Source: Heterotrichella gracilis
Taxonomy: Eukaryota > Sar > Xanthophyceae > Tribonematales > Xanthonemataceae
DNA: 64,000 nt
Reading direction: 5' to 3'
Assembly (NCBI GenBank): GCA_032358255.1
Contig: JAULBX010021077.1
Coordinates: 1 to 64,000, forward strand
Shown: positions 10,228 through 64,000 of the stretch, one piece after another
Numbering within the stretch: the first letter of the stretch is position 1
How the letters are laid out: each line of letters starts with the position of its first letter
The notes under the pieces: model-generated
The model's input: the letters and a program-made list of their open reading frames with translations, nothing else
Database searches by the model: none
Told to the model about the DNA's origin: nothing
Program-made: the position numbers and the translations under genes

Positions 10228-13200
10228 ATGGTCGACATATCACAGGAGGCGCACGCGGAGCAGTACATAATGCAGGTGCGTGGCGAAAACAGCAGGCAGC
10301 AGGCAAAGTGTCTTTGAGCTGTATCACAGATATGCTGGTTTTCAGAAACACCAGCTTTCTTTTCACTGCCTGTCGGCTCCTGGTTGATGCTCACGAAGTG
10401 GCTTCAACCCCCACTCCCCCACCAACCACCCCCCTTGGCGCACGTGCAGGCCGTTGACCAAGCCTCCCTCCCCAACACCCCCACCGCGGCAGCAGCAGCG
10501 GCGCAGGTGGTGGCGCTTCAGGACGCGGTCATACCCATCCCAGCCACAGGCAGTGCGTGCCTGCAACCCAAACCCCAGTGATTACCCTAGCAAGTAACCC
10601 AGCTTAGGTTATAGCCCTGCAGGACGCGGTCATACCCATCCCAGCCACAGGCAGTGCGTGCCTGCAAACTAAAACCCTGGCGAAACCCTAGTATTGACGG
10701 TGGCAGGTCAAGGTCATACGCATCCCAGCCACCGGCAGTGGGCATTGGTATCCCCTAAACCCTGAGGAATACCTTAGAGAGTACCCCACCTTAGGTGATG
10801 GCCCTGCAAGACGCTGTGATACCCATCCCAGTCACAGGCAGTGCGTGTCTGCAACACAAACCTGGCGAAAACCCTACGCTAGGTGACTGCCATCCCATTG
10901 TGCTTGCTATGGCATCACCGAAAACCTAGGTGGAGGTAGTGACGTGGCAAGGAGGTCGTGCACAACCCTGTTCTTCACCTCATTACCCTCTCCATCCCCA
11001 CCCCGCAGGCTACTCCTCCCCCCTGGAGGACCACGGGGGCGACCACCTCCACGGCTCCCACTCCAGCGGGCCCCCCGGGGCCATGCAAGGGGATGAACAC
11101 GAGGACAGGAGCAGCCTGGCCAGGGGGGTTATTATAGCCGAGGTGGAAGCCAACCTGCGGCCCCTCCTCGAGCCGCTGGATGAGGTGCAGCTGGCGGACA
11201 AGCACGCAGCGCTGCAGGTGGGGTTATATTAGGTTTTTTTGTCGTTTTGATAGTGCGGGATGGGAATGTATTATTGGGAAGTTGGATGAGGGTAGTGAAA
11301 TGGGTTAGTTGCCCTATTTGGGGCGGGAGGCGGGTCTGCGGCCCCTTGTTGAGCCGCTGGATCAGGTGCAGCTGGCGGACAAGCACGCAGCGCTGCAGGT
11401 GGGGTTTGTGTTTGGGCGAGGAACGTGGTTAAGGGTGCTGAAGGATTATTTCTGGGGGTGTTGTTAGGCCCAAGCCAATTCCAGTGCAGCCTGGCCAGGA
11501 GGGTTTAGGGTTTAGGGTCATCATAGTCGGGGTGGAGCTGCAAAAGTGTGGTGCACCTGCAGTGAGGCGTTCTTGATCGGGCTTACACCCCTCACCCCCT
11601 TGTACCCCCCGGCTCACAGATTGAGCTGACCCTCGCCTCTGACTCGCACCATCGCGCGCGCGACCGCCTCAAGGCAGTGGACGCGCAGCGGGCAATCGCG
11701 CGCGACACCTACCGCGCAGACCAGTCCTCCCCTGACAAGCAGCGCCTGTGGAAGCACAAGGTGGGGCGGGGTTTGAGATTAACCCTAAACCCTGTGGGAG
11801 CACAGTGTGGGGCGCTGTTCATAACCCTAAACCCTGTGGAGGCACAAGGTGGGGCAGAATCCTCATGACCTCTGTACCTTTGAAAATCCAATTCCGCTAG
11901 ATCCAAGATGGCATTTTTGACTGTCAAGCTCTGTATTTTAACCCCTGCACCCCCCCCTAGATCCACAAGTACAACAAGCCCAGGAGAGCTTTCGCGCCAC
12001 ACCCTCACGAAACCCCAAAACCCTACAGCAAACCCTCACCAAAAGCCTACATACCCCCAGGTGCACGAGTACAAGGAGGCCCAGGAGAGCATCCGCGCGG
12101 CTCGCACCGACTACTACCGCGCCCTGGCTGCCGTGGAGGCTGTGGGGGCTGAGATAAAGAGGAGGGCAAAGGAGACAGCGGTGGGTGGGGTGGGGATGTG
12201 GAGTGGGGAGGGGTGATGGGGAAAATCCAGTGGGGGCGAAGGAGCTGGCGCGCAGGTTGATGGTGTGACGGTGATGGGGTAGTTTGCATTGGTGCGGCAG
12301 TCGGGGCCAAGATAAAGTGGAAGGAGACAGCGGTGGGTGGGGTGGGGAAGTGTGTGGGGTGTGTGTGTGTGTGATGCACGCCACTTAGCCAACATACAGG
12401 TTTGTGAACGAGTGCCCATCCTGACCCACCCGCCCCGCTCTCCTCCCCTTGCAGACCGCCAACAAGGCCCAGATGGCGGAGATGCGGTCGGGGGGCAAGC
12501 GCAAGCGCAGCCACGCCCCCGAGGAGACCTGCCCCTACTGCAACCACAACTATACAGTCAGGGACGGACTGTCGGCAAAGACAGACGAAAACGTGAGTGG
12601 ACCCTAAACACTTAACCCTAGACCCTGAGGAGACCTGCCCTTGCTGCAACCACAAGTGCACGGTCAGGGACGGGCTGTCGGCAAAGACAGACGAAAACGT
12701 AATCTGACCCTACACCATACACGCTAAACCCTAGACCCTGAGGATACCTGCTCTACTGCAATCACATGTGCATGGTCAGGGACGGGCTGTCAGCAAGAAC
12801 AGACGAAAGCGTGAGTGGAGCCTACATGTTTAAATACTCACATTAAACCCTAAACCCTAAACCGTGAGGAGGCTTGCCCGGAAACAATTCGCATGCACCA
12901 GATACCCACCGCCTGCATTTGATGCGCTGCCGGTGCTGAGAGAAGGTGCCCCCATGCCCACCCACATGGGCACCATTGCCACACCCTAATGGCCACCCTA
13001 CCCTCCCCGCCTGCACCCTTGCCACTGCCACCACCACTCAGTGCCCCCCATCTCCACCACCCTGACTCCCTACCACACCACCACTACCCCAGGGCCACCG
13101 CCTGCACCTGCGCCGCTGCCAGTGCCGCGAGAAGACGCCCCCCTGCCGCAACTGCCCCACATGCCGGGAATCCCCCGAGCTCATGGCGCTGTCCAACGAC

Positions 13201-15555
13201 CCCAACCTGCAGTACCAAGTGTGCCAAGTGAGGGTCAAGTGCGCAATTTGCGCCTGCAAGTGAGTGCCTGCTACACCCTAAACCCTACGCAGATCACCCT
13301 TGACCCTAATAGTGAACCCTGTGCCCTAGCACATGCAATTTCCCAGCTTGTATAAACCCTGGGTACCAACTCCGAAATCAACAACACCCCTATGCCAACA
13401 ACATCCACCCCTCGCATCCCACCACCCACACACTCCACCCACTACCCTGCGCAGATGCCCCGCAGTGGACAAAGTTGGTGGATTTCCACCCCGACACACG
13501 CCCCAACTTTGCTGCGCGCACCGTCCTTCTTGCTCGCTAGGCTTGTTTTCCGTGTAAAATGTGCTCCATGTGTGATGGTGACAACGCCACTTGTGCACCA
13601 ACCCACCCACCACCCACCCACCCACCATCACCACCCTGCGCAGGTGCCCCGCGGTGGGCAAGTGGGTGGAATTCGACCCCGACACCCGCCGAAACTTTGC
13701 CGCGCGCACCGGGCAGCGCCACGGGCAGCTGAACGCAATGGGGCTGCTGGGTGGGGGTGAGGGGCTGGCGGCACAGGCGGCTGCGCTGGCAGGGATGGCG
13801 GGGGTGGAAGGCGGGGCCAGCGGTGGGGGCAAGAAGGGGAAGGGGAAGCCGGCCAACATACTCAAGCGCCTGCCGGCGGATTTGAGGAGGCAGGTGGGTG
13901 GTGTAGTATGGGTGGGCGAGTGGAGGTGGAGGGGATGGTGTGCTGGAGGATATGAGGGAGCATGTGGGTGGCGCCAAGGTTCTCAAGCGCCTGCTGGCGG
14001 ATATGAGGGAGGATGTGGATGGGGGTTGTGGGAGGTGATGTGGTGGGGTGATGTGGTGGTGGAGAGGGGGGCAAGGCGCCTGCCTGCAAGCTTGAGGAAA
14101 ACGGTGGGGCCATTAGCAGGATTTCTTGCCCATTGGGTTGGCACGGTCATTACAATCCGTTTCACCCAAATAGCAAACTTCAAGACGAACATGCTCTACA
14201 ACTTCTGCCTACGGAGCCTAATCCCCGTTTCCTCGTTTTCCATCCCCAGGTGGAGTCCCTGCAGATGCACCAGGCTGCCATGGAGGCGGGGGAGGTGGGG
14301 CCTGGGGCGCTGATGGGGGTGGAGGGAGGCGAGGGGATGGGAGGGGAGGGCACCCCCGACATGGCTGCGGGGGCTGCTGCGGCTGGCGGCTCAATGAGCA
14401 AGGCATACCCAGACCTGCCACACGAAGGTGCGGATTGGAACCCTAAACCGTAACCCTAAACAGCTTGGCCGCGGTCAATTCAACGTGATGCACACCCGGA
14501 CCTGCAGCATGGTGCATGACAGAAACGCTGCGCCCTGAGCACCTCTGCCCCCCTCTACCTGCTTGTGGAAAGTGGTGTTCTTGGCTATCTTGCAGAATAC
14601 TCTTGCCACTGCCTCCCCCGCCACTGCCACTTTCCAAAGGGCTCCCCAAACATGTGTGCTGCCAAAGTGACTCCGATACAGTCACAACCACTAACCCCCG
14701 TCATAAATATCCCCCACCACACCTGTTTGAAACGATACACTTTGGGTCGGGACACGACATGGGTCACTACAAACCCTTAACCCCCTCCCCCACCCCACCC
14801 CGCAGTGTCCAACCTTGTTGTTGAGGTGTTTGAGGGCGCTGCCGGCGTGGGTGCTGTGGCTGCTGTGCGCGCATACCTGCAGGTGCAGCGGGTGACTGCG
14901 CTGGCAGACCTGCAGTACCTGCACCTGGACTGGCTGTGCAGGTGGGTGGGGAGGAGGGGGGGGTTGGAGGTGGTGGGGCAGAGCATGCACCCGGACTGGC
15001 TGTGCAGGTGTGTGTGATGGGGGGTGGATGTGGGGTAGGGGGGGGGTCGGTGGTAGGGGAATGTGCAGGTGAAGAAGGGCAGAGCCTGCACCTGGACTGG
15101 CTGTGCAGGTGGGGGGTTGGGGTGTGGTGGGAAGGGGTGTGTGTGTGTTAGGGGGGGTTGGAGTTGGGGGGCTGTGCAAGGAAAGGAGGGTCAGAGCTTG
15201 TACCTGGACTGGCTGTGCAGGTGGGGTGGGGGAGGAGGGGTTTGGAGGGCATACTGTCCTAGCATCTCTCCATGTACTGCTCAATAGGTTCCTCGCCCTA
15301 ATCTCCTCTATCACCCGTACAGGGACCTCCAGCCCTAAATCATCCAGCCCTTAAACCCTACCCCTACAGGGACCTCCAACCCTAAATCATCCAGCCCTTA
15401 AACCCTACCCCTACAGGGACCTTCAGCTCGGAAACCCTACATTACTCTAAACCCTAAAACCCTGCCTCCGCAGGGACCTCCAGCCCCAGGGCTTGCCCCC
15501 GCTGCTGCTCAACAAGTTCCTCACTCTGGCTGCCAAGAAGCTGTCAGAGATCTAG
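10228..15555 (+). CDS. Uncharacterised coiled-coil/Cys-rich protein, 11 exons
   Basis: Exons: 10228-10275, 10450-10549, 11009-11217, 11620-11760, 12061-12180, 12455-12592, 13093-13259, 13644-13893, 14250-14427, 14806-14941, 15474-15555. Total 1569 nt, 522 residues, all phases consistent; stop TAG at 15553. Residues about 100-240 are charged and helical (probable coiled coil). Residues about 260-340 form a Cys/His cluster: CPYCNHNY, GHRLHLRRCQCREK, CRNCPTC, CQVRVKCAICACKC, which looks like a binuclear zinc-binding module. A Gly/Ala-rich linker and a C-terminal helical segment ending AAKKLSEI follow. I do not recognise the family. It is probably intracellular, with no signal peptide or membrane segment. 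Exon 2 is closed by a CAG/GCAGTG donor, an apparent GC-AG intron, the only donor that keeps phase. Almost every exon of this gene has degenerate copies in the adjoining introns. Confidence 0.72.
10613..10860 (+). repeat. Three echoes of exon 2 3' end
   Basis: The exon 2 end plus its GC donor (about 10513-10576) recurs as degenerate direct copies at 10613-10676, 10702-10747 and 10799-10860, all inside intron 2. The copies share the core TACCCATCCCAGCCACAGGC with substitutions. Short CCCTAA-like strings lie between copies. Confidence 0.85.
11338..11540 (+). repeat. Two echoes of exon 3 pieces
   Basis: 11338-11409 repeats the exon 3 end and its donor (11158-11228) almost exactly. 11483-11540 repeats a middle part of the same exon (11106-11160). 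They are in direct orientation within intron 3, with a doubled TTTAGGG at the second copy. Confidence 0.8.
11791..11857 (+). repeat. Two echoes of exon 4 3' end and donor
   Basis: 11791-11814 and 11831-11857 both repeat the CTGTGGAAGCACAAGGTGGGGC junction sequence of exon 4 with changes. Each copy is preceded by AACCCTAAACCCTG, a telomere-type heptamer run. Confidence 0.75.
11953..12350 (+). repeat. Echoes of both ends of exon 5
   Basis: 11953-12003 is a degenerate copy of the exon 5 acceptor and 5' end (12056-12110), upstream of the exon. 12303-12350 is a degenerate copy of its 3' end and donor (12150-12195), downstream. The genuine exon 12061-12180 lies between them. Confidence 0.75.
12627..12813 (+). 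repeat. Two echoes of exon 6 3' half
   Basis: 12627-12700 and 12738-12813 repeat the last about 75 nt of exon 6, encoding the CPYCNHNY module, plus the donor AACGTGAG. Both copies follow CCCTAGACCCTG strings. The first copy retains most codons, while its donor has drifted to GTAATC. Confidence 0.85.
12896..12960 (+). repeat. Echo of exon 7 5' end
   Basis: A degenerate direct copy of the exon 7 acceptor and first about 55 nt (13087-13145), lying upstream in intron 6 and preceded by three CCCTAAA units at 12845-12863. Confidence 0.7.
13443..14107 (+). repeat. Echoes of exon 8: one upstream, two downstream
   Basis: 13443-13532 copies the exon 8 acceptor and 5' end (13638-13725). 13977-14033 and 14069-14107 copy its 3' end (13858-13900). 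The genuine exon 13644-13893 sits between the upstream and downstream copies. Confidence 0.75.
14979..15435 (+). repeat. Symmetric echo arrays filling intron 10
   Basis: The exon 10 end with donor (14915-14950) recurs three times near 14979-15015, 15077-15115 and 15188-15230. The exon 11 start with acceptor (15469-15490) recurs three times near 15317-15340, 15364-15390 and 15412-15435. The acceptor-side copies are joined by CCCTTAAACCCTA strings. Confidence 0.85.
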
Positions 15556-18460: not shown

Positions 18461-21400
18461 ATGGCGGTGGCCTCAAGGACGTCCCTGGCCTCAACCCTCT
18501 CCTCAGCCACTTCCGATGGCTCCTCCAGCGGCATCTTTGGGATCCCCATGGGGATGCCGGTGCTGTCTGGGGATGGCATCGAGGAGGGCCCCGGTCCCCA
18601 GGAGATGGCGATGCCCAGCGCCCCCGCAGCGTGGTGGGAGACCCTCCCCGCGGCGCCTGCGCCACCAGTGGCACCTCAGGTATGTGCTCAGGGTTGGATG
18701 TCCGCCGGCTCTCAGTACTTGCAAGAACGCAGGTGGTGTGGCCAGCAGTGGCGCTGCCCTGCACAGTGGGTTAGGTTTTAGGGTCTTGCAGGATGCAGTT
18801 TGCCGAAGAATGGTGGGGGTTGCCCAGTATGCCAGGGAGTATTTTTCTCCCCTCTGAGCCCTAGGCTTGCACTTGTGCCCCCCAGTTTCTGCCGCGTAGT
18901 GTCCCTTTCTGACGCCTCTCTCCACACCATGGTTTGCTCTAGTTGCTCTTTGCCCCACGTACTTTTACACTGAGTGCTGGGTGTGCCTTGTGCGCCGGCT
19001 ATGCATGCAAGCTTCCAGTCCGGCTACTGCAACCTGCTCCCCTTTCTTCCTTCTTGAAACTCCCCTACCATATCTAAAAGCAGGAAAGAGCATGATCCCA
19101 AGAGAGGGAGATTCCTTTCTTCCTTCCTGAAACTCCCCTATGGCTGCATAGCCTTTAGGGGTTAAGAGCACCTGTACGTACTCCTTCCATGCAGGCGCCT
19201 GGCCCCGCACTGCGGTCAACCAGATCCATGGAGAAGGCACCATTGAGCGGCAGGTCAAAGCTGACGTCATCAGATTCTGGCCTAAGTAGGATGAGCATCC
19301 AGTCGACCGAGTCTCGTGCCCCCCCTGAGGAGGTTCCCAACCAATGCCTGTGCCCCATCACCCTGGAGATCATGCGCGACCCGGTGCTCATCCAGTCAGG
19401 TAGGGTTTATGGTTAGGGTTAGGGTTAGGGTTCAACGTTTACCCTTGTCATCACTGTGGATATCATGCGCGACCCGGTGCTCATTCAGTCAGGTAGGGGT
19501 TAGGGTTTGGAGGTTAGGGTTCAACGTTACCCTTACGGGTCATGTGCATGCGGCGCCCGGTGGACATACACAAGGGCAGGGTGTAAGGGTGTGAAGTGTT
19601 GGGTTGGGGGGTTGATGCTTACCTATGTCATCAAGATTTGGTGGCCATGGAAGCAGGAATGCTGGTTCTGACTGTTCTGGCTTGGTTCTGTTAAATATAT
19701 TGTAATACATTACAGTACATTATATATTATACCGTATATACGGTCTGCTGGGGTAGCTGGGGGGCTTTTGGCGATTGGCTAGTTTGGCCAGCTAAGCCTT
19801 CTCCTTGGTACCCTAAACCATAAACCATAAACCCTAGTTTGGCCAGCTAAGCCTGCTCCTTGGTACCCTAAACCCTAAACCCTATTTTGGCCAGCTAAGC
19901 CTGCACCTTAGTCCCGTTTCAATTCCCCTGCCAGGAGGGTCTCAGTGAAAACAAATAATCTAGTATATGAGGTGTTCGCAATAAAACCCTCCCTCAGGGT
20001 ACAGACCCACCGCTCCATCGTCTTGCGTCCTCGGATCCACCTGTATCCCACAACCCTCTTACCCCAAACCCAAAACCCTGCTGGTTCCCGTTCAACTGTA
20101 TAGGCATCGGACATGCAAATCGCGAATAAGGACATATATCTACTGTAAAATCAGTTGCAGTTGTTTTGCACAGTCAATGATAATTTTCATGTTTTTGCAC
20201 AATCAATAGTAATTTTCATTTTTTTGCACAGTCAATGATGATTTTCATTGTTTTGCAGGGCACACGTTTGAGAGGGAGGCCATCGTGGACTGGTTCGCCA
20301 AGAACGAGCCCCCCACCTGCCCCATCAGCCGCACCCCCGTGGACCCAGCCTGCATGTTCAGCAACTTCTCACTGCGATCCCAGTGCCACGATTGGCTGGC
20401 GCGGGAATCCGTGAATTCCACCCTGGGGTCCCTGTCCCTGGGACAGTGCGCGCTGCAGTCGGTTGATGGGCCCCCCTCGGAGGTTTCGGAGGAAAGCGAG
20501 GAGTTTGGGGATTGCGACGAGTCCCCCGAGGGATTTGGTGGTGCTGGGGAGGGGCAGGTGCCGATGACGCCTATCCGCATTCCGGAGGTACGTGTGGCGG
20601 CTGTAGGGGTTGGGTCGGGTAGGGCAGTGTAGGCATTAAGCAGGGGCATTATAGGGATTATGCAGGGGCATGGTGGGGATTGGGTAGGGACGTCACAGGG
20701 ATTGAGCAGGGGTGTTTTGGCATAGCTTGCCTGTGGGGTTGGTTTGCAGCCGACTTGCGCGCATGCGCTGCGGCGGGTATGGGTATGTAATGGTACCTGT
20801 GCTTGCCTGGGTATATAACACTGTGCTTGCATCTGCCATAACCATATATCTCAAGTTTATGAGTTGTATTGTCTCATATATATGTGGTCTGGTTGTCACC
20901 AGCTGCATCCTCACTCCTCCATAGGACCAAAATAAATAAGTAATTAAATAAATAAATTATTCATGTTTAAATAATTGCTATCTTGTGTATTTTACTTTTG
21001 TCACCAGCTGCATCCTCCGTCCTCCACCGGACCAATATAAAGGATTCATGTTTAATTAATTGCTATCTTGTGTATTTTCCTAACATAGGACGTTTGATTC
21101 CAGGCACCAGAGGCCCCCCCAGCAGCCGCGCTCCCCCCTCCCCGCCTGGCCACCATGCTACTCTCTAGGCACTCTTCAAACTCCTCAATGCAGTCACCGG
21201 CGCCAGCACCGCCCTCCCCACCCACACAACCAGCGGGCGCGCCCCTAGTGCCCCCTCCCACGAGCCTGGCTGGCATGCTGCTCGCCAGCAGGAACTCTTT
21301 CAACATGCCGCCCCCCGTCCCCGCGCCGCCACCACCAGCCAACATGAGGATCCCCTTTACCCCCGACGTCCCTCCCCAGATCCCCGCCATGGCTGCGCCG

Positions 21401-22477
21401 GCTCCACCGGTCCCAGTGGCGCCACCTTCCCCACCAGCACATGCCGCCTGGATGCCGCCCCAGAACCCAGCCGTACACGCGCCCCTGCCGCCGGCGCCCG
21501 CCCTTCCACCCCCTCCCCACCACCCGGCCGTCGTGGTTCAGGCGCCGCCACCCGCCGCGCCCCCTGCTGCGGCCCCCGCTGGGCCGCCACTGCACACCCG
21601 GACCATGCTCATGCTGCTCGACACCAACCAGATCGGGAGGGCCCTGGGCGGCCTCGAGGCGCAGCCCGCGCAACAGCAGAAGGAGTGCCTGGAGGCGCTC
21701 GCCGAGTGGTGCGACCCCGTGGGCAAGTTCTTTGACACGCGCGCCGCCGCCCTGGTGGCCGCGGGGGCGCTCCACAGGCTGGTGCACATGGCGTCGGTGG
21801 CTGACGGCGGCAGGGAGGCGTGCCAGGCGGGCGCCGCGCGCGCGTTGGGCAACCTCGGCACCTGCTCGGAGGCGATCAAGAACGCGGTGGTGGCCGCGGG
21901 CGCCATCCCCCCCCTGGTGGCGATGCTCAACAGCGACAACATTGAGTGCCAGGAGCAGGCCGCGCGGGCTCTGGCCAGGGTAGGGAAATTCTTTGGGAAC
22001 CCTCCAACCCGCATCGAGGCCTTCGTGGCTGCAAGTGCTATCCCCCCCCTGGTGCGCCTGGTGGAGAGCGCCAATCTCGCGTGCCAGCTGCAGGCGTCGC
22101 GCGCGCTGGCCAGCATCGCCGCGGGGTTGAACCAGCACCGGGACGCCATGGTGGCGGCGGAAGCCATCCCCGCCCTGGTGCGTGTGCTGGGCAGCAGCAG
22201 CAGCGCGGCGTGCCAGGAGCAGATTGTGGGTGCTCTGAACTGCTTTGCGCAGACGACCAAGCCCCATAGGGACGCGCTGGTGGCCGGCGGCGCGATCCCC
22301 CCGCTGGTGCGATTGATGGGGACGAATAGATTTGCGGGGGAGGCGGTGCAGCACATGATGAAGAACTCGAAAAAGGGGAAGAAGGCGGCCCAGGCGGCGA
22401 TCCTGGAGCTTCATAATGCAAGCAACCAGATGTCGCCGGAGTGGAAGGCCTGCTTGGCCCAAGCTCTCAGTTTTTAG
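18461..22477 (+). CDS. U-box E3 ubiquitin ligase with armadillo repeats
   Basis: Exons 18461-18679, 19195-19399, 20259-20587, 21104-22477; 708 residues; stop TAG. The U-box spans about residues 120-190 and crosses two introns: CLCPITLEIMRDPVLIQS, then GHTFEREAIVDWF, then PPTCPISRTPVD. This fold recruits an E2 without zinc. A Pro-rich linker follows (residues about 250-405), then tandem armadillo repeats to the end (AGAIPPLVAMLNSDNIECQE; SAIPPLVRLVESANLACQ; EAIPALVRVLGSSSSAACQE; GAIPPLVRLMG), which should bind substrates. The architecture matches plant PUB-ARM ligases, probably cytosolic or nuclear. The last exon is a single long GC-rich block. The specific substrate cannot be inferred. Confidence 0.9.
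19403..19432 (+). repeat. Interstitial TTAGGG/TTTAGGG-type run
   Basis: Three tandem TTAGGG units directly after the exon 2 donor, between the genuine exon end and its echo. Comparable short runs occur at 641-673, 4312-4338, 12843-12862, 24716-24739, 34963-34985 and many other introns, in either orientation. Confidence 0.8.
19438..19500 (+). repeat. Echo of U-box exon 2 3' end
   Basis: A direct copy of the end of exon 2 (19355-19410), including ATCATGCGCGACCCGGTGCT and the donor AG/GTAGGG, placed 40 nt into the intron after a run of three TTAGGG-type units. Confidence 0.85.
19789..19905 (+). repeat. Tandem repeat with telomere-type linkers
   Basis: Three copies of TTTGGCCAGCTAAGCCT(T/G)C, about 57 nt apart, the first two followed by runs of CCCTAAAC(C)C. 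They lie in intron 2 of the U-box gene and are not exon-derived. Confidence 0.75.
20163..20258 (+). repeat. Three 32-nt repeats ending at the exon 3 acceptor
   Basis: Three copies of a T-rich unit (TTTTTGCACAGTCAATGATG with substitutions) abut the genuine TTTTGCAG acceptor at 20258. The polypyrimidine/acceptor region itself has been tandemly copied. Confidence 0.75.
20896..21081 (+). repeat. AT-rich tandem duplication in intron 3
   Basis: Two copies of a block of about 85-100 nt (20896-20993 and 20999-21081) that share GTCACCAGCTGCATCCTC and ATTGCTATCTTGTGTATTTT. The segments carry no coding sequence. Confidence 0.75.
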
Positions 22478-23469
22478 GGTTGAGGACTGAGGATTTTTAG
22501 GGTTGAGGCCTGCTGGGCGAAAGCACTCATGCTGTGGTGTGAAATTTCATGGCGGGGAATTAGTAAAGAAGCCAAGGTGGCAGCGATCAAAAGGGTTAGG
22601 GTTTAGGGCTCAGCGCCAACTTCGGCCACTTGCCTGGCCAGAGCATATCCTGGTGCTTTGCTTGCATTTTGATATCACATGATTTACTTGCATTTTAGTA
22701 TTACAGCCAGAGCAGCAGTCAGCCTGACACAAGCTGCGCTGCGGCAAAGGAGGCACCATGTGTACCGTTGGTTGGTCGTGCGCATTCCAAGGTCCTGCTG
22801 TATCAATTCCAACCACGTGATCTTGATTTTCTCTGCCCTCTTTTCCCTACGTGCTTGACCAAACACAACAAGATTCTGGCAGGCCTGGAGGGGCATGCTT
22901 GGCACCAACTGGCAGGGTTTTGGGTGCAGGTTTTGAGAAAATTGAGATGCAGCCTAGACATTTAGGAGGCACGAGTTATTCAAGTCTTCAGGCAAGCGTC
23001 GCATCCATCTTGTGAGCAGCGCAGCCTAATGTCCCTGAGCCACATACAACCGCAAGGGCACTTTTTCATATTAAGACGTGACATGTGTGTGTACCATTTC
23101 CAGTTTTTTCCATCCCCAGCGTGATTTTCATGATTTTGGGGTCCTAAGCAGGTGGAGTACTTTCAACTTCGGTCGAACAAGGTTGGCGGAAAATAGAATG
23201 CGACGAGCTGGCCCGCAGAGCTTCTTTTTCAAGGAGGTACCGGTCAAGGTTGACAATGTCAATCAAGGGTGGTGGAGTTGTTGGTTGGGCTTTGGAAGGC
23301 AATTACAGTGTGAGACGATGTGGTCAACTGGTGGATGGAGTGATTGTTTGGCGCACAAGCGTTTACCGGAATCTATCGTCTGGATATTTTATGGCTGGCA
23401 GCTTTAGGCCTGAGTTAGGCCTAAGCTGAGCTTGTGTACATTAGTATGTGCCTCTGTGGGCTGCGCTGT

Positions 23470-23597
23470 TGTGCAACATCATCACAAAGACAAGAAATGT
23501 CAATTGAGGGATTCCGCAAAGATTGGCAACACGTACATGCACATTTTTTACGGAATCCCTCAATTGAGTTGTCTTGTCTTTGTCATGGTGTTGCACA
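23470..23597. repeat. Long near-perfect inverted repeat (hairpin)
   Basis: Left arm 23470-23516 and right arm 23551-23597 pair over 47 nt with about five mismatches, around a loop of about 34 nt. A transcript of either strand would fold into a long stem of the size of an algal miRNA precursor. A solo fold-back MITE remnant is an alternative; no flanking target duplication was identified. Confidence 0.8.
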
Positions 23598-30515: not shown

Positions 30516-32747
30516 ATGGCCTGGGCACGGCCACAGCCCACCCCCTTCACAGCAGCCCTCGCCACCCTCCTCCTCCTCCACACCACCCTCCTCACCACCC
30601 CCTGCACAGCCACCACCAGCCGGAAGTTCTACCAAACAGTCTCCCATGTACTGGTCAAAGACTCCGCAGCCTCCTCTACAGAGGTGGAAGTCACAGTCAC
30701 CCAATCTAGCTCGTCCGAAGGGAGCTCCAGCAGCAAAAAGCAGTACAAAAGCGAGGAGGAGACAGGGTCACCCAGCCTCAGCACACATGACGCCGCCTGC
30801 CCCTTCGACTACCCTCCCATCACCCTAGAGGACATCCGCAACGGCACCAAACCCTACATCCTGGGCGGCTCCCGGCCGGGCTGCGTCAATTGCAACGCAG
30901 AGAACTCTGAGTGGGCGGACTTCTGCCAGTTCAAAATCAGCCAAGAACACGTCTGCCCGGCCGAGAAACAGGCCTCGCTGCTAGCCTTCCTCTTGGAAAA
31001 TGGCTACGAGCAGCACCTCACGTTGTCGCCATGTGACCTGTGGCAGCACATTCGGGGGCGCACGCTGTGGCTTGCTGGGGATAGCCAGATGAAGGATTTC
31101 TGGAAGGCCACCGCGTGCTTCATGTACGAGTTCTGGGACCTGCAGGTAGGAGAAACCCTAAACTCCACGCAAGGGTAGCAGGAGGGTCAGTACCTAAGTA
31201 GGGGAGGCAGTGCACAGCAGTGTGATGTTCAGGGTTGGGGCAATGCTGGCATGAGGTGGGTGCATATGGTAGGGGAGATAGTGCATTGTAGGGCAGTGCG
31301 TATGGTATGGGAACTCCCAGTGGACAGGAGCGCACTGCCTTGTTTTCCTGGCAAGCTACCTCCTCGCACCCAACGTGCCTGATCACGAACAGGCTGCTAC
31401 ATACTAGGCAGTACTCGTTCCAACGAAGACATTCAAATAAGCAGCGCCAAGCGATTTGATTTTGGCCCTGTTAACCGTTTATTCATCCGGCTGCTAAATT
31501 TAGTCAATAAAGCATTCATTCATGAATGTAAGAATGTCCAGTTCCTTATCCCTTTTATATGTGGGACCTGCAGATCTACAAGCCCGTGGTGGATGACAAG
31601 CTCAACTACCTCATGCGCAACGGCACCTTCCCCATGTGCGTGCACCTGCCGGAGGGCACCCGCATCTGCTACATGCGCTTCAACCACGGCCAAACCTTTG
31701 TTGAGAAGGTGCTGCCCAACTTCCATAAGGTCGGGCGCCCCGCCAGCGACTTTTTGGTGTTCAACTATGGGCTGCACCACTACGAGAACTACAAGGAGGT
31801 GCGGGAATAGTGTGGATGAATAGCCTTGATAACTGCATTGTGGGTAGCTGATGCCATGCATCCCAGCATTTTTGTCAGCATTTTGTCGATTTTTGTAAGG
31901 TTAAGCGGCCCCCCAGCGACTTCCTTGTATTCAACTATGGGCTGCACCACTACGAGAACTACAAGGAGGTGCGGGAATTGTGTAGTTACTTCGGCTAGAT
32001 AAATGCATTCCGGAATTTGGTAGCTACAAACTTGCATCCCAGCATTTTAGTCAGCAGACTTTGATTCCGGTCAATGGGTCTCAGCAGTGCATCCCGGTCA
32101 GCCATGAGCAAGCATGCGCTACTCAATCCTGTCTGGCACCCCGTCTCTTTGTAACTAATTGCCCTCGTTCTTCTCGTCCCCAGGTGCTGGAGTACTTTGC
32201 CGACGAGTATTCCAAGGCCCTCTTCACGCCGTACCTCATCTGGAAGGACACCCCCCCACAGCACTTCAACCTGAGCACCGAGGGCAACTACGTGGCGGGC
32301 GCGCAGCCGCCCTTCACATGCGCCCCCATCGGCCACGTGGCGCGGGTCAACGGTGGACCCCTGGTGAACGGGCGCTGGGCGCGGGAGGGCCAGAAGACCG
32401 TGGTGGAGGGCGGGTGGCGCAACAAGGTGGCCAAACCCTTGATGGAAACCCTAACCGTGCCGGTGGTCCAAGGGTGGAACGATACGGTCCCGCTGTGGGA
32501 GTACCACAGGGACAATGGCAAGGGATACGAGTGCACGCATTACTGCCACCCCTCGGGCCCGCAGCTGTGGATCAAGAGCCTGATGGACGTGCTGGTGGAG
32601 CGTCGGGGCGAGATCTGGACGCACTACAAGCTGGGCAAGGCGCTGTACAAGACCGCGCGGCGGTGGCCCCAGCAGTCGCTGCACGTGGACACTGAAGAGG
32701 AGATGGCGGCCAAGCGGCTGAGCTGGAACGACACCCTACAACCCTAG
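30516..32747 (+). CDS. Secreted PC-esterase/TBL-like putative glycan O-acyltransferase
   Basis: Exons 30516-31145, 31574-31798, 32184-32747, all phase 0; 472 residues; stop TAG. Residues 1-33 form a signal peptide or signal anchor (LATLLLLHTTLLTT). A Ser-rich stem (40-85) follows, then the globular domain. This carries a GDSL-type motif LAGDSQMKDFW at about residue 190, and near the C-terminus a TBL/PC-esterase-like second motif CTHYCHPSGPQLW in place of the usual DCxHWCxPGxPDxW. The serine of GDS and the histidine of the second motif are the expected catalytic residues. Plant TBL relatives acetylate wall polysaccharides in the Golgi. By analogy this enzyme may modify wall or secreted glycans, but the substrate is unknown. 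The position usually held by Asp of DxxH is Glu here (ECTH). Confidence 0.78.
31900..31981 (+). repeat. Echo of PC-esterase exon 2 3' end
   Basis: Near-identical direct copy of 31727-31806, including GGGCTGCACCACTACGAGAA and the donor GAG/GTGCGGGAA. It lies 100 nt into the intron. The following about 60 nt also recur (TGCATCCCAGCATTTT). Confidence 0.9.
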
Positions 32748-40389: not shown

Positions 40390-40449
40390 GAACGTTATTG
40401 TTATTGTCGAAGACTCGGTCCACCCCAAGGCTCCACCATCAGCAGTTAC

Positions 40450-44060: not shown

Positions 44061-44069
44061 GTGCAAGTA

Positions 44070-46297: not shown

Positions 46298-48296
46298 CTA
46301 TGGCTGCAATGATGGCTGTGATTGGGATGACTCAGGCTGATTGTCCTTGGGTTCCCCCCCTTGGTTGTAAGATGTGGCGATCAAGGGTGGGTGGATGGCG
46401 GGGCTGGAGGGGGCTGCGGCTGCGGCCGTGGCAGTGGCGGTGGCTGGTGGTGGTGGCAGGGCGGGGATGCCCAGCGGCACTGACAGGGATTGGGACTTCG
46501 ACGTGGTGTTTTCTGCCACCTCTGCTGCCTTTTGAGTGTCGAACTTCCCTTGCATGACTGACAGGATGACTGTCCAGCCAAAGGAGACTGCGGCCACTGT
46601 GGGGAGGTGAAAAACGGGGTTTAGGGTTTAGGTTTCAGGGGGAGCGGAAGGTAATATAATGTAGGTGATGCAGGTGATGTAATAGGAGCATGGTAGTGAC
46701 AGGCACCAACCCCAACCCATCCACCCCCTAAGCCTTAAAGACTGCACCACGGATGCAAATGTGACCTCCAAACACCCTCCTCGAGACCCTAATTCCCACG
46801 CCCCTGCACGCACCGTAGGGTATCCTCAAGTGGCGCGGCACGAATGCAAAGTCGGCCAGCTGTGCATGCACCCACTCCATCCACAGCGCCTTCACTCTGT
46901 CCCACATGTCCAAACCCTACACCCTTCCAAACCCTGCCCCCACCAACTATACCCTCACAGACCCTAAACCCTGATCCCCATATTTGCCACGCACCGTAGG
47001 GTATCCTCAGGTGTCGCGGCACGAACGCAAAGTTGACCAGCTGTGCCGGCACCCACACCATCCACAGCGCCTTCACGCTGTCCCAGATCTCGGTGCGGTA
47101 CTTGTCAGCTGCCCAGCTCAGCGGCTTGCCCTGAACCAGCGCCTTGAGGGTGAAGAAGGTGGGGAAGTAGACAAAGGGGTGGCTGCAGAAGGGGGGGAGA
47201 AGAGGGTAGTTGTGAGGAAGGGCGAAGGATGGTGCGTGCATGTGTGTGAGTTGTGTGTGTGTGGGGAGAGGGTTAGGATGAGAGGCGGGCGAGGCTCCCT
47301 GCCACTCCTTGCATCGCCAGCGTGACATGCGTAATCCCCATTTTGTGAACTTCAAAACGAACATGCATTTCGATATTTTACGGCATGTTAGAGGGTTAAT
47401 GCGCGTGGGATGTAGGGTCTCAATGGTTTCATGGCCACGCACTGAATGGCCTGGTCCAGGAACACCTTGACTGGCGCCACCCCCTTGTGCCCCACAGTGG
47501 CGGTGATGCCCGAGCACCACTGCGTGAACTTGACGTTGTACAGCCAGTACTGGAAGCCGCCCAGGTAGGCAAACCCAAAGGTGCAGAACACCGCGTGGCG
47601 CCGCCAGTCGATGTGCTCCCGCTTCTCTATCACCTGAGATGAGGGGGGGATGAGAGAATGAGACAATGGCATGGAGTTCCCCAAATATCCGTACCCATTT
47701 TACACATCTGTTTTCCGGTATATGTGAACCTTTTTTATTTACTGAGACACGCCCAGGCATGCAAAGCCAAGGGTGCAGAACACCGCGTGGCGCCGCCAGT
47801 CGATGAGCTCCCACATCGCGCTCCTGCTTCCGCTTCCTGAAAGCTTGACACTTCAATCCCAGCTCACCTTCTGTGCCCACAGACCCTAAAGCCCAAACAG
47901 CAACCCTACATCCAAATCCTACACACACACCCTCTCCATGCCAGCTCACCTTTTGAGCAAATAGGTCAGCGGCACTGGTCTTGACCCCGGTGGTAATGAT
48001 GGCTGTTACCACGGGGTGCGACTTTGCTGGCCTGTCTTACCACATGGCCGTGCCCACAAACCCTAAACCCTAAAGCACCTTGCATCCAACCCTCAAACCC
48101 TTCAATGCAATGCCTACCCCCCCCCCGCTCCACGCCAGCTCACCTTTTGTGCAAATAGGTCAGCGGCGCTGGTCTTGATCCCGGTGGTGATGATGGCTGT
48201 TACAACTGGGTGTGACTTTGCTGTCCTGTCATACCACATGGCGGTACCCACAAAGGGGGCTGCCACAGCCTTCCCCGCACGCACGAGGCGAGACAT
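46298..48296 (-). CDS. Mpv17/PMP22 family membrane protein
   Basis: Exons in transcript order: 48144-48296, 47443-47633, 46995-47182, 46298-46596; 276 residues; ATG at 48296; phases 0, 2 and 1 match. The family signature is clear: HPVVTAIITTGIKTSAADLF at the N-terminus, DQAIHHPFVYFPTFFTLKAL in the middle, and the hallmark KALWMVWVPAQLVNFAFVP-R-HLRIPY, followed by VAAVSFGWTVILSVM. Four membrane helices are expected. Relatives reside in mitochondrial inner, peroxisomal or chloroplast membranes and may form small channels. The last about 75 residues are an unusual Pro/Ala/Ser/Gln-rich tail absent from typical 180-200 residue members. No clear targeting peptide can be assigned. Confidence 0.9.
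46808..46912 (-). repeat. Echo of Mpv17 exon 3 3' end
   Basis: About 100 nt direct copy of 46989-47085, including donor CACCGTAGGGTATCCTCA, placed downstream in intron 3 with ACCCTAAACCCTGA between. Confidence 0.9.
47768..47835 (-). repeat. Echo of Mpv17 exon 2 5' end
   Basis: Direct copy of 47578-47640, sharing AACACCGCGTGGCGCCGCCA, placed upstream of the exon in intron 1. Confidence 0.88.
47950..48056 (-). repeat. Echo of Mpv17 exon 1
   Basis: About 107 nt copy of 48137-48250, covering the donor and most of exon 1 but not the start codon. Roughly nine in ten positions match. It is joined to the genuine copy through AACCCTAAACCCTAAAG. Confidence 0.92.
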
Positions 48297-50461: not shown

Positions 50462-53400
50462 TCACATGAGACATTGACCTCCAGTCCTCAAGGAGGTGTC
50501 CATGTCTGCTGCCTGCCAGGCTGCTTGGCACACTGCTTCCACCACCTGCTCCACCTGGCGCTGGCTCTGCACATGGGCGGGGATGGGCACCTCCAGCAGC
50601 ACCTGGTTGAGGATCTGCACCAGAAACATGGTAGCTATCTTTATTATGTATTTACTTGATTATCTTATCTTTTATTTCAACCGGCAATTGTATTTCAACA
50701 GGCGATTCTTCCATGATCCGATATGATTCCGATCGGTTGGCATCCAACTTCCAGAAAGTTGCCCTCAGGTTCCATACTGCCGCCCTCACCCCTAGGTTTT
50801 ATCCCAGACAACAAAGCCTGACCTCAAAGTTCTAAACATCCCCCTTGAATGCCAGGATGCATCATGCACTCTCATGCTAAAAGCAGCGTGTAGGCTGCAC
50901 ATTCATGTTTACCGGCAGGTTGACGAGAAAGCACAGTGCTGCATGACAGTAGCTGCATAAATCACCGTGATGCAATTAAGGCCTTTCAGAAGCACCAGAC
51001 CCTAAACCTCCTAAGCGCCAGGGCGCGTGCATTGTCTTGCTAAGGGAGCATGCAGGCCGCACCTTCATGTTGACGGGCAGGTTGACGAGGAACCACGGGT
51101 GCCACATGATTTCCGGGATTTTGATGCGCTGCTGGGGATCCACAACCAGCATGCGCCTGATCAGGTCCCCGCACAGGGGCGGGATGCCAGGGGGCAGCTG
51201 GTAGTCGCCCGCAAGGATGCGCGGGAGCACCGTGCTGAGCCGAGACACGTCCTGCAAGGGCGCATCCCCCTTGCGGTAAAACGGGAACCTGTGAAGGCAA
51301 AACGGAATAATTTTATTGGATCCGATCAGAACAATATAAGCGCGGCGAGCCTGCGCTAGAGCAGCTGTTTGCACTGGGGCGATGCGCCAGTTGGCAGGTG
51401 GTGGCTCCATGCGCGATGTCCTGCCGAGTCGTACCACTTTTGGGCTGTCTTGGCTGTTTTGGCAAGCTCGCGTCTTGTCTAAGGTTGGCTGGCGAACGAA
51501 TGCACACGCACATACTGGCCAATGGCGCAAAGAGGTCTTTGAGATGAGGAGGACATTCAACTAACTTTGTGACCAAGAAATGCACACTTACTGGCCACAC
51601 ACAAAGATGTATAGGAGCACGCCGCAGGCCCACACATCCGCTGCCTTGCCGTCAGTCTGGTTGCATCCGCCCAGCACCTCAGGCGCGATGTAGTCGGGAG
51701 TTCCTCCGCATGTCTTAGGCATCGAGTCAAACAACTCTGCAAGAGTGTTTTATGTCAACAACACAACTTATTTAACAAGGGTTACAGAGTACGCAATATT
51801 GACAAATGTCAAAAGACGTGCATGATATGACATTGCAGCATGACAAAACAAAAAGGTAACCAGTGATATTGCTTTGTCTACACACTTGGGGCCAGGGTGT
51901 GCAGTGCTGCATGCATGTGCGGGGCGGCCCATTCACAGTTACAAGTGAGGCTGTACCCAGTTGAACAATGCTAGCAGTAAGGAAATTCATGTATGACAAT
52001 AAGAGTTCATTGTTGTACCACATTGCAAAGAAGAGTGATACATTAAGGCAAAAACGGTTGTTTACTAAGTGGTAATTCATCTAGATATCCCTCACCATTT
52101 TTGGAGTAGCCAAAATCGCAGATCCCGAGCAGTGGCAGAGGTCTCGAGCTGTCCAGCATGATGTTTTCCAGCTTGATGTCGCGGTTGGCAACCCCTTTCC
52201 GGTGGCAAAAGTCCAGTCCCAGCACCAGCTGCTGGAAGAACCAGCGGGCGAAGGACTCGTGCATCCCCTTGCCCACCAGGCTGCGCTGCGCGTGCATGAA
52301 GTAGTCGCACATGTCGCCACCCTGCAGGACACGTTGGCGCCAGGTTGACATAGGATTAGGGCTTTGAGTTTAGGGTTGGATTCAGGGTTGCCCACCAGGC
52401 TGCGCAGCGCGTGCATGAAGTAGTCGCACATGTCGCCACCCTGCAGAGCACATGCTAGTTAGATACGAAGGTACATAACTCGACCCCGTGCATTCTCTGT
52501 GTGCGGTGGAAGAGTCTACGGCGCCGCACTGGTGACAACAGGCTGCTGAAACAACCACTCATGAGTCTTGCGCTGTGCCCGGAGAAAGTGGTCGCACACG
52601 TCGCCATGCACCTTGCGGCACACGTTGACGCCAGGTTGGCTCGGTATCATGGTCTTGTATTAGAATCTTGTATTACATTTTGACATTTGTAGCTCAATGG
52701 CGGCCCATTACAATGGCCGTTTTGTTGGAGTACAGGTGCAGGAAAGCCGTGCATCATTGCACGTTGTGCAAATGAACAGCAGGCATACGGTGGTCAAAAC
52801 CCTCCAGAGCCACCAGCACAGCTACTGCCACCACCACCACAGCCCCCATCACCACTACCACCACTGACCTGCATGCACTCCGTCACTATACAAGCAGCTT
52901 ACTTGGATGTTTAATGTTTGAAGACCCTAATCACTGACCTGCATGTACTGCATCACGATCGCCAGCTCTGTGTGGTACTGGAATACCTCGTAGAACTGCA
53001 CCACGTGCGGGTGAACTGCAAGCATGCGCTGGTTCAAAACCTCCTGCGCCAGCTGTCGCTTCATGGCGGGCTTGACCCGCACAAACTTGATGGCCACGTG
53101 CTCACCGGTGTTGAGGTCCAGGGCAAGCTTGACAGTCGCGGTAGAACCTGGGGAATGGAGAGCACATTTCAATAGTTTCCACGTTGTGCAAAGTGTTTGC
53201 CTCTGGTGAGCAGCTAGAGCAGCGCATATGATGGGGGTGCTAATGCCAATTGTTTCCTTTATACTTTTGCACATGTTTTGTCGCCAAACAACAGCACGGC
53301 TGATGGCCATGTGTTCCTTGGTATTCAGGTCCAGGGCAAGCTTGATTGTGGCGGTGGCATTGGTGGCACCTGGGGGATGATTAGGGTCCCTGGAGGGTTT

Positions 53401-56400
53401 GACATCTTCAAACATTGCATCCAATGCTGGCGCTTAGGGTGGTCTCCAATGCATTACAAGCATTTATGCAAATAGCAGCAGCTGGAATGCCATGTTGCTA
53501 CATAACCACCGAACTGTTCAGGATTTCCATTTGACCTTTAAACACCTAAACCCCCTTTTGATGCTTAAATAATTACAAACACAGCAGCAGGTGGCTGCTG
53601 CATGCGTGGTAAGCATTGAATCAAACATGAAATTTGATGTTCATGGCCACCTACTCGGGATCCCCGCTGATCAGGTCCAGGACAAGCTTGACAGTGGCGG
53701 TGGCACCTGCGGGGGATTGAAACACCAGTTTCACGACGCACACGCTGCATTGTGTTTGCCTCTAGCATGCGGTGCATCGGATGTGGGTGCTAAGTTGCTA
53801 CACTCGGCCTTGTGTAGCTCATCTCATGGAGCCTACCACCCACCCTAACCCATTTAACCCACCTGTGCCCAGTTCTAAGAGTTCATGGTTTTATGTGCCG
53901 AAGCATGAGCGTGCTCATGCAGGGCTTGGTCTTCAAGGGCTCCAGTGCATGTGGCTTTGTGTCCAAGCACACCACTTAAGGTGAAGTTCTATTGCAGGGA
54001 TTCGTAGGGTTTGTAGGGCCCAGGGTTCAAGGGTTGTGCCTGCCACCCACCTTTGCCCAGCTCTGCAACCACGTGGTACCGCCCGTTGAGTATGCCGTCA
54101 TACAATGCCTGTGGCACTTGCGTGTGGCTGCTCAGTGACTGCACCGAGCCGCATGGACTAGCCACTGAAGCCCTGGTGAGCGCTGTTGCACCCAGTTTGA
54201 CAAGCTCACTGTGGGCATCGGCTTCAGACAGCCTGGGGTCCCTGCGTGAAAGAAACAGCACAACATGTAAAAGATGGTAGGACACCATATTTACTTTTTC
54301 TATCTGTTCCCAATCTAAAATATTTGCAGCCAGCTGCAACTGGGCACGGATTGCCTCGCTGCTGGCCATCCAGGGGTTATATGCCTGGGTTTAGGGTCCA
54401 GCGTCTGGACATACCTGGTTGCGCCCATCTGTCGCAGCTTGACGAGGTCATCGCATGCATTGGCGTGGCTATCAAAAAACTCAGACCGCAGTAGTACATT
54501 AGTTTTTTCTTCTTTTTTCCCCCCTGGGATTGATCGCAGCAAGCTATTATTGGCCACATGATACCCACCTGGTTGTGCCCATCTGTCGCAGCTTAATCAG
54601 GTCATCATATACGTTGGCTAGCCTGCGTCCATCAAGTACCGCGGTGTGCGCCTCAGTTTGGATGCCAATCGAGTCACGCTCCACCTCAGCACAGAAGCTG
54701 CGCCACGGACCAAAAATAATTCATATTCATTGTCATATTCCTTTCCACTTCCATATTTTTCCTTTTAAAAAGTCGTAATACGTAACATGTTCAAAACCAA
54801 CCGGGGCACACCCCGCAACCCTTGTGGCAGGTTGTTTGGTTGGTTGGTTACACACATGGGAGTGTGGACACAGAGACCAGCAGTGCAGCAATTGCAACCA
54901 GCGCAGCTTGGCGGGACCCTCCCTGTCACCACATCGCCACAAAACACCCTACACCCTACACCCCAAAGCGTACCCACCTCATTGACACAATCACTGGCAC
55001 CAGCCCTGCCACAGCATGAAGTCAATAACCATAAACTGTACACCCTACACCAGACTAACACCAAACCCACCTCATGCATTCACTGGCGCCCGCCCTGTCA
55101 CCACACCCGCAGCTCCCGTTGTGGCACAGTTCTGCATAGCCCCGCATGTCAGATAATACCAGGCAAAGCAGCGACACCAGGTCCTCCCTTGCCTGCTGTG
55201 TCTCACACGAGTGGTTGGCCCTGTAAATTGTGGAAATCAGCGGTCATTACATAATACAGGCAACAGCTAAAAGAGAAGCATAGCCAGTTCCCAATGTGAA
55301 GGCTCGAGGTTTTTCGCCACCGGGAATGGTACGAGGCCTGCAGGGTGACTCAATAAGGCGCAAACCCCACTTTAAATAGCTTTGTCCCTCACTCACTCTG
55401 GGAGAGTGAGTGACGCTGTGTCTCCCGCGTGTGGGTGGCCCTGTGAAAATAAGAACCAGCCTCAAACAGAAACACTATGCCATAGGCCGTTTCCAATTAT
55501 TATTATTATTATTATAGGCCGTTTCCAATTATTATTATTATTACTATAGGCCGTTTCCAATTACATAAGCCTTGAGCCCTGCCAGCAGGCAACTGGCCGC
55601 CATTTCCGCTTCCAGGCTTGCTTGCACCCTAGACCCTACAATCCTAAACCTCAAAACCCTAGGCCCCCTTTCCGCACCACTGCGCTGCAGCTCTTCCAGC
55701 CTTGCTTGCATGTTGGGCTCTTGCAGGAAGTCGGCTGCGGCTGTTTAAACCCTAAACTAACCCTAAACCCTAAAGTAGCCAATCAACTAACCAAACGTAG
55801 TTGCCCACAGGGAGGGATACCAAGTGCAGCCTGACCCCTTTATGCACCACAGCTGCTGAGGTTTTCGCTCTTAAAACCCTACAACCCTAAACCCTAAGTA
55901 CCTAGGGCACCCTCACGCACCACTGCAGCTGCGGCCGCAGCTCTTCCAGGCTAGCTTGCATGTTGGGCTCTTGAAGTCGCCTACAGCTGTTTGAACCCTA
56001 ACCTCTTCACCCTAAACTAACTGACTGTAAACCCAAAACTAGTTAACCAACTAGCCAATTCGTAGTTGTCCACAGCAGGGGACTGATACCGAAGTGCTGC
56101 CTGACTCCCTCACGTACCACTGCTGCTGCGGCTGCAGCTCTTCCAGGGTTGCTTGCAAGTTGGGCTCCAGCAGGAAGTCGCCTGTCTCCAGCACGGTTCT
56201 GGCTGCCAGCGCTTTGCAGCAGCCCGCAACCTCCTCCAGCCACCCCCACAGCTGCCGCTCCATGCACCCCCTGCCCAAGTCCCTCAGACTGGGTGTGCAA
56301 ACAAAAACATGTGTCAGTGCCCTTCTAGAGAAGCTCTGGGATATGTTTAAGGGTTGAGGGCATGGTGAATTTATTTTGGGTTATCAGCCTGGGGACATGC

Positions 56401-62199: not shown

Positions 62200-62270
62200 A
62201 TGCCGTCATGACGCAAGCCCTACACTGGGTGGGATGAGGGATCATCAAGCCCTTAGGGTTACCAAACAGG

Positions 62271-62275
62271 TGTAA
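62271..62275 (+). promoter_or_regulatory. TGTAA polyadenylation signal of XRCC4
   Basis: TGTAA 72 nt after the stop codon, the first such signal downstream. Confidence 0.45.
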
Positions 62276-63265: not shown

Positions 63266-64000
63266 CTACTTTGTGTAGAGCACGTCGTCCCATGGGTGCC
63301 TGTACAGGGGCTGCTGGAGGCGCTTTTGATCGAGGGCATGGCCTGTGGGGGGGTGGGGTTGGGGCAAAGGTGAGGCGCAGGCATGGGCATGAGTGCTCAG
63401 GTGCGGCTGAGAGACATCGTGGTGTGGGTGCGATGGGATGCCATGCTGTGAGGTGCAGTTGTGTGGTGAGCCTCCACCTCATGGTCGCACAGGCGACGTG
63501 TGTCGCCCCACTGTTTAGGGTTCATAATTAGGTTTTAGGGTTTGATTCAGGTAGGCTAACCCAAAACAGGGACCCGAATGCAGGAGTCCTGACCCTATGC
63601 ACCCTCACCTATGAGCCCGATGCTCCTTGCCAGCACAAACAGGCCGTTGAGGTAGCCGATCTTCACCACGTCCTGGATCTCAGCCTGCAGGGAGGGAGCC
63701 GATGTGTATTAGGGTCTGTGGTTAGGGTTTGGTTGGGCATCTACATGTCTTTCGATGCCAGCCTGCAAGGAGGAAGTCAAGGAGGGGTAGGGTCTTGGGC
63801 TCCCGGGTTAAGCTCAGGGGTTAGTGGATAGTTTTGACGAGTGCAGCAGGTCCAGAAACAGCGCGCCTAAAGCACCCCTCCTCCCACCCCCACCACCCAC
63901 CTCCCCCCACCAGCTTTGGCAAAGTAGACCAGTTCCAAATGCCACCATACCCCCCCCCACCAACAACCCCACCCTACCTCTGTGAACAGCTTTGAAGAGT
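63266..64000 (-). CDS. ACLB: ATP-citrate lyase subunit B, 3' end (partial)
   Basis: Exons in transcript order: 63978-64000 (runs off the window), 63609-63684, 63266-63342; 57 residues plus stop TAG. The sequence [30 protein letters not shown], then [24 protein letters not shown] is the conserved C-terminus of the plant and algal B subunit (human ACLY ends similarly with [21 protein letters not shown]). The enzyme is an A/B heteromer in plants and cleaves citrate with ATP and CoA to cytosolic acetyl-CoA and oxaloacetate. The rest of the gene lies beyond the window. An echo of the exon 63609-63684 start occurs at 63748-63778. Confidence 0.92.

Follow-up and report, generated by a model that had tools for sequence, protein, structure and literature searches.

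The introns of the xanthophycean alga Heterotrichella gracilis contain partial copies of the edges of the exons that they separate. These copies, referred to here as echoes, are real and widespread in the genome, and their scale is unusual. They are mostly direct, local and polar, and they are found in most of the sampled regions. The filler between the copies is enriched in telomere repeats, and the spacing from copy to copy is regular. Most likely, the echoes are a new variant of a known repair-driven duplication and not a new kind of element. With moderate confidence, they can be regarded as frequent short direct duplications that are largely blind to genes, that come from the repair of breaks, and that are filtered by selection.

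The window is the whole analysed stretch of 64,000 nt from one contig, and the genome searched is a 68.5-Mb assembly of 903 contigs. Genome-wide sampling was based on 24 other 10-kb stretches (240 kb) together with positions 10–64 kb of the window (54 kb). The first 10 kb of the window were omitted from most counts because of the coding repeats there. A pair of copies was called near when its spacing was below 600 bp, and duplication families were defined with the same limit.

Across the 54 kb and the 24 stretches, 171 near direct pairs were found (72 and 99, respectively), compared with a single near inverted pair with separate arms. Far pairs numbered 23 direct and three inverted. Sixteen hairpins were also present (two in the window and 14 in the sample), which shows that inverted structures do occur. 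Dinucleotide shuffles, made from the window tiles and the first 20 loci and passed through a filter that leaves out hairpins, gave no near pair. The pairs were grouped into 104 duplication families, of which 41 lie in the 54 kb of the window and 63 in the 240 kb of the sample; families are thus about three times as dense in the window as on average. At least one family occurs in 20 of the 24 sampled stretches, and the spacing is 260 bp or less in 102 of the 104 families. The identity between copies ranges from 67 to 100%. An earlier note on this DNA had described direct local copies of variable divergence as its core observation, and both parts of that description hold.

Five genes (A–E) were modelled from translation and splice-site phase, that is, from the sequence only. 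A Pfam search of genes A and C gave no match at 1e-3, and gene E matched U-box (2.1e-14) and Arm (1.7e-24). The features discussed below are as follows.

1068..1190, plus strand: intronic duplication in pherophorin-like copy A, spacing 75; single copy in the tandem paralog (7011-7056)
10228..15555, plus strand: gene A, 11 exons, 523-aa open reading frame, GT..AG introns
10228-10275, 10450-10552, 11009-11217, 11620-11760, 12061-12180, 12455-12592, plus strand: gene A exons 1-6
13093-13259, 13644-13893, 14250-14427, 14806-14941, 15474-15555, plus strand: gene A exons 7-11
10606..10862, plus strand: three echoes of the gene A exon 2 3' end with donor, spacing 101, 185 and 288
11336..11406, plus strand: echo of the gene A exon 3 3' end (63 nt) with donor (8 nt of intron), 94% identical, spacing 181
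11790..11855, plus strand: two short echoes of the gene A exon 4 3' end, with AACCCTAAAC ahead of each
11954..11997, plus strand: upstream echo of the gene A exon 5 5' end
12296..12359, plus strand: echo of the gene A exon 5 3' end with donor
12623..12879, plus strand: echo array of the gene A exon 6 3' end, period about 106, telomere-like repeats within the unit
12906..12958, plus strand: upstream echo of the gene A exon 7 5' end, spacing 189
13418..13523, plus strand: upstream echo of the gene A exon 8 5' end with acceptor, spacing 188
13973..14071, plus strand: echo of the gene A exon 8 3' end
14978..15248, plus strand: three echoes of the gene A exon 10 3' end with donor
15313..15459, plus strand: upstream echoes of the gene A exon 11 5' end with acceptor (ACAG|GGACC)
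19228..22477, plus strand: gene E (U-box and armadillo), exons 19228-19399, 20259-20587 and 21104-22477
19449..19534, plus strand: echo of the gene E exon 1 3' end with donor, spacing 93
19779..19915, plus strand: gene E intron-only duplication around telomere-like filler, spacing 103
20161..20257, plus strand: gene E intron-only duplication whose end is the exon 2 acceptor, spacing 58
20893..21081, plus strand: gene E intron-only tandem duplication, spacing 105
30516..32747, plus strand: gene C, exons 30516-31145, 31574-31798 and 32184-32747
31896..32056, plus strand: echo of the gene C exon 2 3' end that includes the donor and some 80 nt of the intron, spacing 170
46298..48296, minus strand: gene B (Mpv17/PMP22 family, Pfam 1e-20), exons 48296-48144, 47633-47443, 47182-46995 and 46596-46298
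46807..46910, minus strand: echo of the gene B exon 3 3' end with donor, spacing 181
47750..47812, minus strand: upstream echo of the gene B exon 2 5' part, spacing 192, 92% identical
47902..48060, minus strand: echo of gene B exon 1 (111 nt) with donor, spacing 194
48061..48095, no strand assigned: filler with two telomere units that directly abuts the gene B exon 1 echo
51063..54109, minus strand: gene D (protein kinase, Pfam Pkinase 4.6e-58), model incomplete
54109-54051, 53147-52939, 52321-52096, 51736-51592, 51288-51063, minus strand: modelled exons of gene D
50865..50946, minus strand: echo at spacing 163 of the gene D exon 5 3' end, donor included; the set of 42 tested edges does not contain this one
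52388..52638, minus strand: two upstream echoes of the gene D exon 3 5' end with acceptor, the nearer one 98% identical at spacing 119
53301..53712, minus strand: two upstream echoes of the gene D exon 2 5' end

For the exon 3 echo of gene A, 110 bp of unrelated filler separate the copies, and exon 1 of gene B offers a clear example of an echo that keeps its donor and directly adjoins telomere units. For a systematic test, up to 100 nt of each exon edge were compared with the gene's own intron, with the reverse complement and with the introns of other genes, and the cut-off was the score exceeded by about 1% of the other-gene comparisons. All five gene models bear echoes. A same-strand copy in the adjacent intron was found for 20 of the 42 edges, and a reverse-complement match for one of 42. 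Donor edges passed the cut-off in 12 of 21 cases and acceptor edges in eight of 21. The splice site is crossed by 18 of the 23 echoes that could be delimited individually, so the exon edge is indeed copied together with its splice site, as had been proposed. The layout is also polar. Edges of internal exons have a copy on the expected side in 17 of 32 cases and on the wrong side in three of 32. The three exceptions all belong to short exons of gene A (exons 2, 5 and 6, with 103, 120 and 138 nt), for which the 100-nt 5' and 3' queries overlap.

It had further been claimed that copies continue past the stop codon and that each echo derives from its own gene. The former was not borne out. The last exons of genes A, B, C and E, the four models in which this exon is complete, scored 19, 23, 19 and 28 against the 1 kb downstream, and the reverse-complement controls scored 18, 25, 19 and 25. 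The first exon of gene C scored 27 against the 1 kb upstream and 16 in reverse. The latter claim agrees with whole-genome searches of the two genes examined in this way. The searches used 5.4 kb of gene A and 2 kb of gene B, and they returned the window plus one short match each (38 and 99 bp). Consequently, no other genomic source is seen for the echoes of these two genes; further copies of genes A and B, which could have served as empty sites, were not found in the assembly either.

Arrays of at least six CCCTAAA units start at base 4–7 of contigs C70, C140, C526, C609, C717 and C770, which identifies CCCTAAA as the telomere repeat of this genome. A 17-mer of this repeat occurs 2437 times in the genome and its reversed control once. 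As in interstitial telomeres, the repeat in the fillers matches the repeat of the chromosome ends. An exact unit is contained in 26 of the 65 fillers of two-copy families, compared with 8.6 expected when fillers are relocated at random within their locus. When the relocation is confined to the same introns, 10 of 17 fillers contain a unit and 5.8 are expected (p 0.015). In the introns of the five genes, the density of telomere units per kb is 54.6 in filler, 22.5 in copies and 12.4 elsewhere, and it is 1.5 in exons. The telomere-motif count also correlates with the number of duplication families over 22 loci (Spearman 0.64, p 0.0014); loci L005 (GC 0.36) and L011 (4000 N) were omitted from this correlation and from the local 10-mer and composition scans described below. 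The units do not gather at one particular copy boundary (4 of 23 and 5 of 23 at the two, against a background of 0.119 per window of that test). A patchwork of local sequence was set aside as a source of filler: local 10-mers cover 183 (direct) and 168 (inverted) of 4503 bases, with about 119 and 97 in controls, a slight excess.

In 72 two-copy families, the start-to-start distance has two peaks, with component means of 99 and 189 bp and density peaks at 98 and 185 bp; in 102 families, the means are 100 and 189 bp and the peaks are at 103 and 185 bp. Two components are preferred over one with a BIC gain of 16 and 33 for the 72 and 102 families, respectively (10 and 18 on a log scale), and the Silverman test for one mode gives p 0.03 and 0.02. 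The trough at 132–168 bp is present in both sets of two-copy families (three of 28 in the window and two of 46 in the sample). The copy lengths and the filler lengths each vary widely. When the copy lengths of 67 families were shuffled against the filler lengths, both peaks were lost and none of 200 permutations matched the observed gain, with ranges (169–197 and 135–165 bp) that were picked post hoc and with permuted spacings that, unlike the real ones, were not cut at 260 bp. The two-component mixture comparison is free of the post hoc ranges and of the uneven cut. Because shuffling the parts destroys both peaks, it is the total distance, rather than the length of the copy or of the filler, that looks regular. 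One idea is that a chromatin unit lies behind this regularity; a scan for composition periodicity, as a sign of nucleosome spacing, found none near 189 bp.

A process of repair could proceed in the following way. A stretch of about 60–250 bp would receive breaks or nicks on both strands. Its ends would be copied and then joined, which would leave the original stretch, a filler that is often CCCTAAA-like and a second copy. A duplication within coding sequence would usually be lost. A duplication across an exon edge would be harmless as long as the original splice site stays in use, and the surplus copy would remain in the intron, downstream of the donor or upstream of the acceptor, where it would decay. 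The polar layout would then result from selection, which spares only those duplications that leave the mRNA intact. In this account, breakage at staggered positions, joining of the ends, a role of telomerase or the capture of telomere sequence, and selection as the origin of the polarity are inferred. For the earlier proposal of splice-junction copying, this means that the local edge copies are real, and a process that recognizes junctions is not needed, as exon-free duplications occur and selection would provide the polarity. The tandem pherophorin-like paralog, which lacks one intronic duplication, allows a comparison with a single-copy site. If copy plus filler had been inserted, such a site should look like the outer flanks of the two copies. 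It resembles the flank to the left of copy 1 with z 3.4 (filler 0.8) and the flank to the right of copy 2 with z 2.7 (filler 1.5), in one case that is not at an exon edge and has modest scores.

Blind repair does not account for everything. In the five genes, 19 edge families stand against three intron-only families, with an armadillo-repeat family set aside because both of its copies are coding. Random placement in the present introns would put 30% of families at an edge. Rough estimates that allow for faster loss of intron-only pairs and for shorter ancestral introns raise this expectation to 46–57%, and the excess persists (p 0.0001–0.003), so a blind process does not fully explain it. Either exon-anchored pairs survive much longer than was allowed for, or exon edges are favoured targets. 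The latter would apply if copying were directed to edges, through breaks or stalled forks at splice junctions (for instance at encounters of DNA with transcription, R-loops or the spliceosome) or through repair templated by unspliced RNA. This explanation is rather improbable. The excess of edge families (19 of 22) fits it, as does the fact that 40 of 78 local pairs lie inside the 15.9 kb of modelled genes, although the remainder includes genes without models. Selection together with a slower loss of pairs anchored in conserved exons would also enrich edges. Moreover, duplications without any exon exist, namely the three in gene E introns and two in a pherophorin-like gene, in stretches that the paralog alignment indicates to be introns. 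The copies are not clearly centred on exons: in 11 of the 18 that cross a splice site, more of the copy comes from exon than from intron (medians 42 versus 27 nt, p 0.058), and p falls to 0.003 when five copies that stop short of the splice site are included. Copies in spliced form, which also argue against the idea by their absence, are lacking at 20 of the 21 spliced junctions in an ungapped scan, and the other junction has a 12-nt repeat at the intron end. An origin from spliced RNA or a retrocopy was rejected on the same grounds. The Rogers model of intron gain by tandem duplication does not fit either, as a copy of the upstream exon end abuts the next exon in only one of 21 introns (gene C intron 1, 12 nt).

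The preferred total of copy plus filler is likewise not accounted for by simple fill-in in the blind-repair reading. Another rival is plain tandem duplication by replication slippage or unequal exchange, followed by very fast loss and replacement of intron sequence; the part anchored in the exon would then be all that can still be recognized, and the filler would be a decayed unit. The indels needed for such decay would blur a preferred spacing. Some arrays are plainly tandem, with the telomere-like part within the unit (12517-12879), and the matched exon blocks of the pherophorin-like paralogs are 90–97% identical while their introns are largely unalignable. Among 11 well-preserved pairs, the filler resembles the sequence following copy 2 in two (z 4.4 and 4.2). 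In the other nine, whose copies are 85–98% identical, the filler does not clearly resemble what lies beyond either copy (z ≤2.2), and the resemblance beyond the copy ends is weak when averaged across two-copy families. On balance, plain tandem duplication is unlikely to be the main source. A transposon or an introner with long target-site duplications is highly improbable, even though the order copy, filler, copy resembles an insertion with target duplication and one 292-bp filler (in L023) contains a dispersed 74-bp repeat that also occurs in L010 and partly in L024. Telomere-like repeats are the only sequence common among the 54 fillers of at least 30 bp, which argues against a single family. 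The filler and copy lengths are both highly variable, in place of the constant element and constant duplication length of a transposon, and a family of like intron-forming elements at many sites was not found among these 54 fillers. The view that the echoes are not introners, a transposon family or processed pseudogenes was therefore right, given the lack of a common filler element and of spliced-form copies apart from the 12-nt repeat. An assembly artefact can practically be dismissed: no point in its support was found, and most copies have diverged by at least several per cent, with distinct fillers and flanks.

Repair-driven duplication has precedents. Tandem duplications arise from opposite-strand nicks or staggered breaks via end joining (PMC5730883, where plant work by Schiml et al. 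is cited). Both those duplications and the echoes are direct and local, with occasional inserts and repeated rounds. Unlike them, the echoes are natural, occur in most sampled regions, often have a telomere-like filler and show spacing peaks at about 100 and 185–189 bp. In mammals, telomere repeats are inserted at breaks, and the loci with a duplication of the target number 6 of 130 in rodents, 4 of 25 in primates and 3 of 66 in the horse (PMC2246262, PMC7215372). These internal repeats, like the echoes, sometimes have a direct target duplication and random bases; the duplication is a minority outcome there, whereas here the motif is enriched between duplicated copies. One tandem duplication across an intron–exon boundary is reported in the potato RdRp gene (PMC4974935). 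Like the echoes, it spans a splice site, in one gene; it created a new intron, whereas the echoes sit inside introns, at 20 of the 42 edges tested. Introners account for large-scale intron change in eukaryotes, including green algae (PMC9860276), and the echoes differ from them in that the fillers contain no repeated element family and the copies come from the adjacent exon. No description of genome-wide exon-edge copies was found among the titles and abstract openings of a literature from which subscription papers were mostly absent.

The question of how introns grow and turn over is an old one, and clear intermediates are seldom available. In this genome, about half of the tested edges carry copies of differing apparent age with visible breakpoints, so that the size, direction and filler of the events can be measured genome-wide. 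The association with telomere repeats points to break repair, perhaps involving telomerase, as a major source of intron DNA, and the regular spacing is a physical clue to the intermediate. The echoed splice sites are natural tests of how splicing passes over decoys that are almost identical to the true sites, and they pose a risk to gene prediction. A bolder and doubtful possibility is that the introns of this lineage were largely built from neighbouring exons by a repair process with a ruler, which would repeatedly insert blocks of fixed total length (about 100 or 187 bp, perhaps set by chromatin), each made of an exon-edge copy and a telomere-seeded filler, at exon–intron borders. Introns here seem to grow out of the genes that they interrupt.

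The two pherophorin-like genes that lie in tandem in the first 10 kb of the window have conserved their exons and introns very unequally. The paralog alignment covered:

1-5000, first pherophorin-like gene
5900-10000, second pherophorin-like gene

Matched exon blocks were 90–97% identical, whereas most of the intron sequence could not be aligned, so turnover is far faster in introns than in exons.

In gene C (three exons, + strand), the last 12 nt of exon 1 recur where intron 1 ends:

31134-31145, 3' end of exon 1
31562-31573, end of intron 1

Such a direct repeat is the signature that would be expected from duplication-type intron gain.

Among the local repeats, hairpins form a second class beside the direct duplications. 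Fourteen were spread over 10 of the 24 sampled 10-kb loci (L005, L006, L008, L009, L010, L015 and L018-L021). The window itself contains a two-arm hairpin at 23467-23600 (arms of 59 nt each, 85% complementary), and no further copies of it were found across the assembly. Direct local duplications were absent from L005 (contig C1; GC 0.36), unlike most other loci; is this contig organellar or a contaminant?

AAACCCTA and its complement occur 75 times in the 64 kb window (44 + 31), compared with 155 per Mb reported for Arabidopsis (PMC3022908), although the counting rules may differ.

At 12517-12824, the two echoes of gene A exon 6 (degenerate direct copies of its edge) share bases that differ from the present exon, reading AAGTGCACGG/ATGTGCATGG against AACTATACAG today. 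Echoes may therefore preserve older states of exons.
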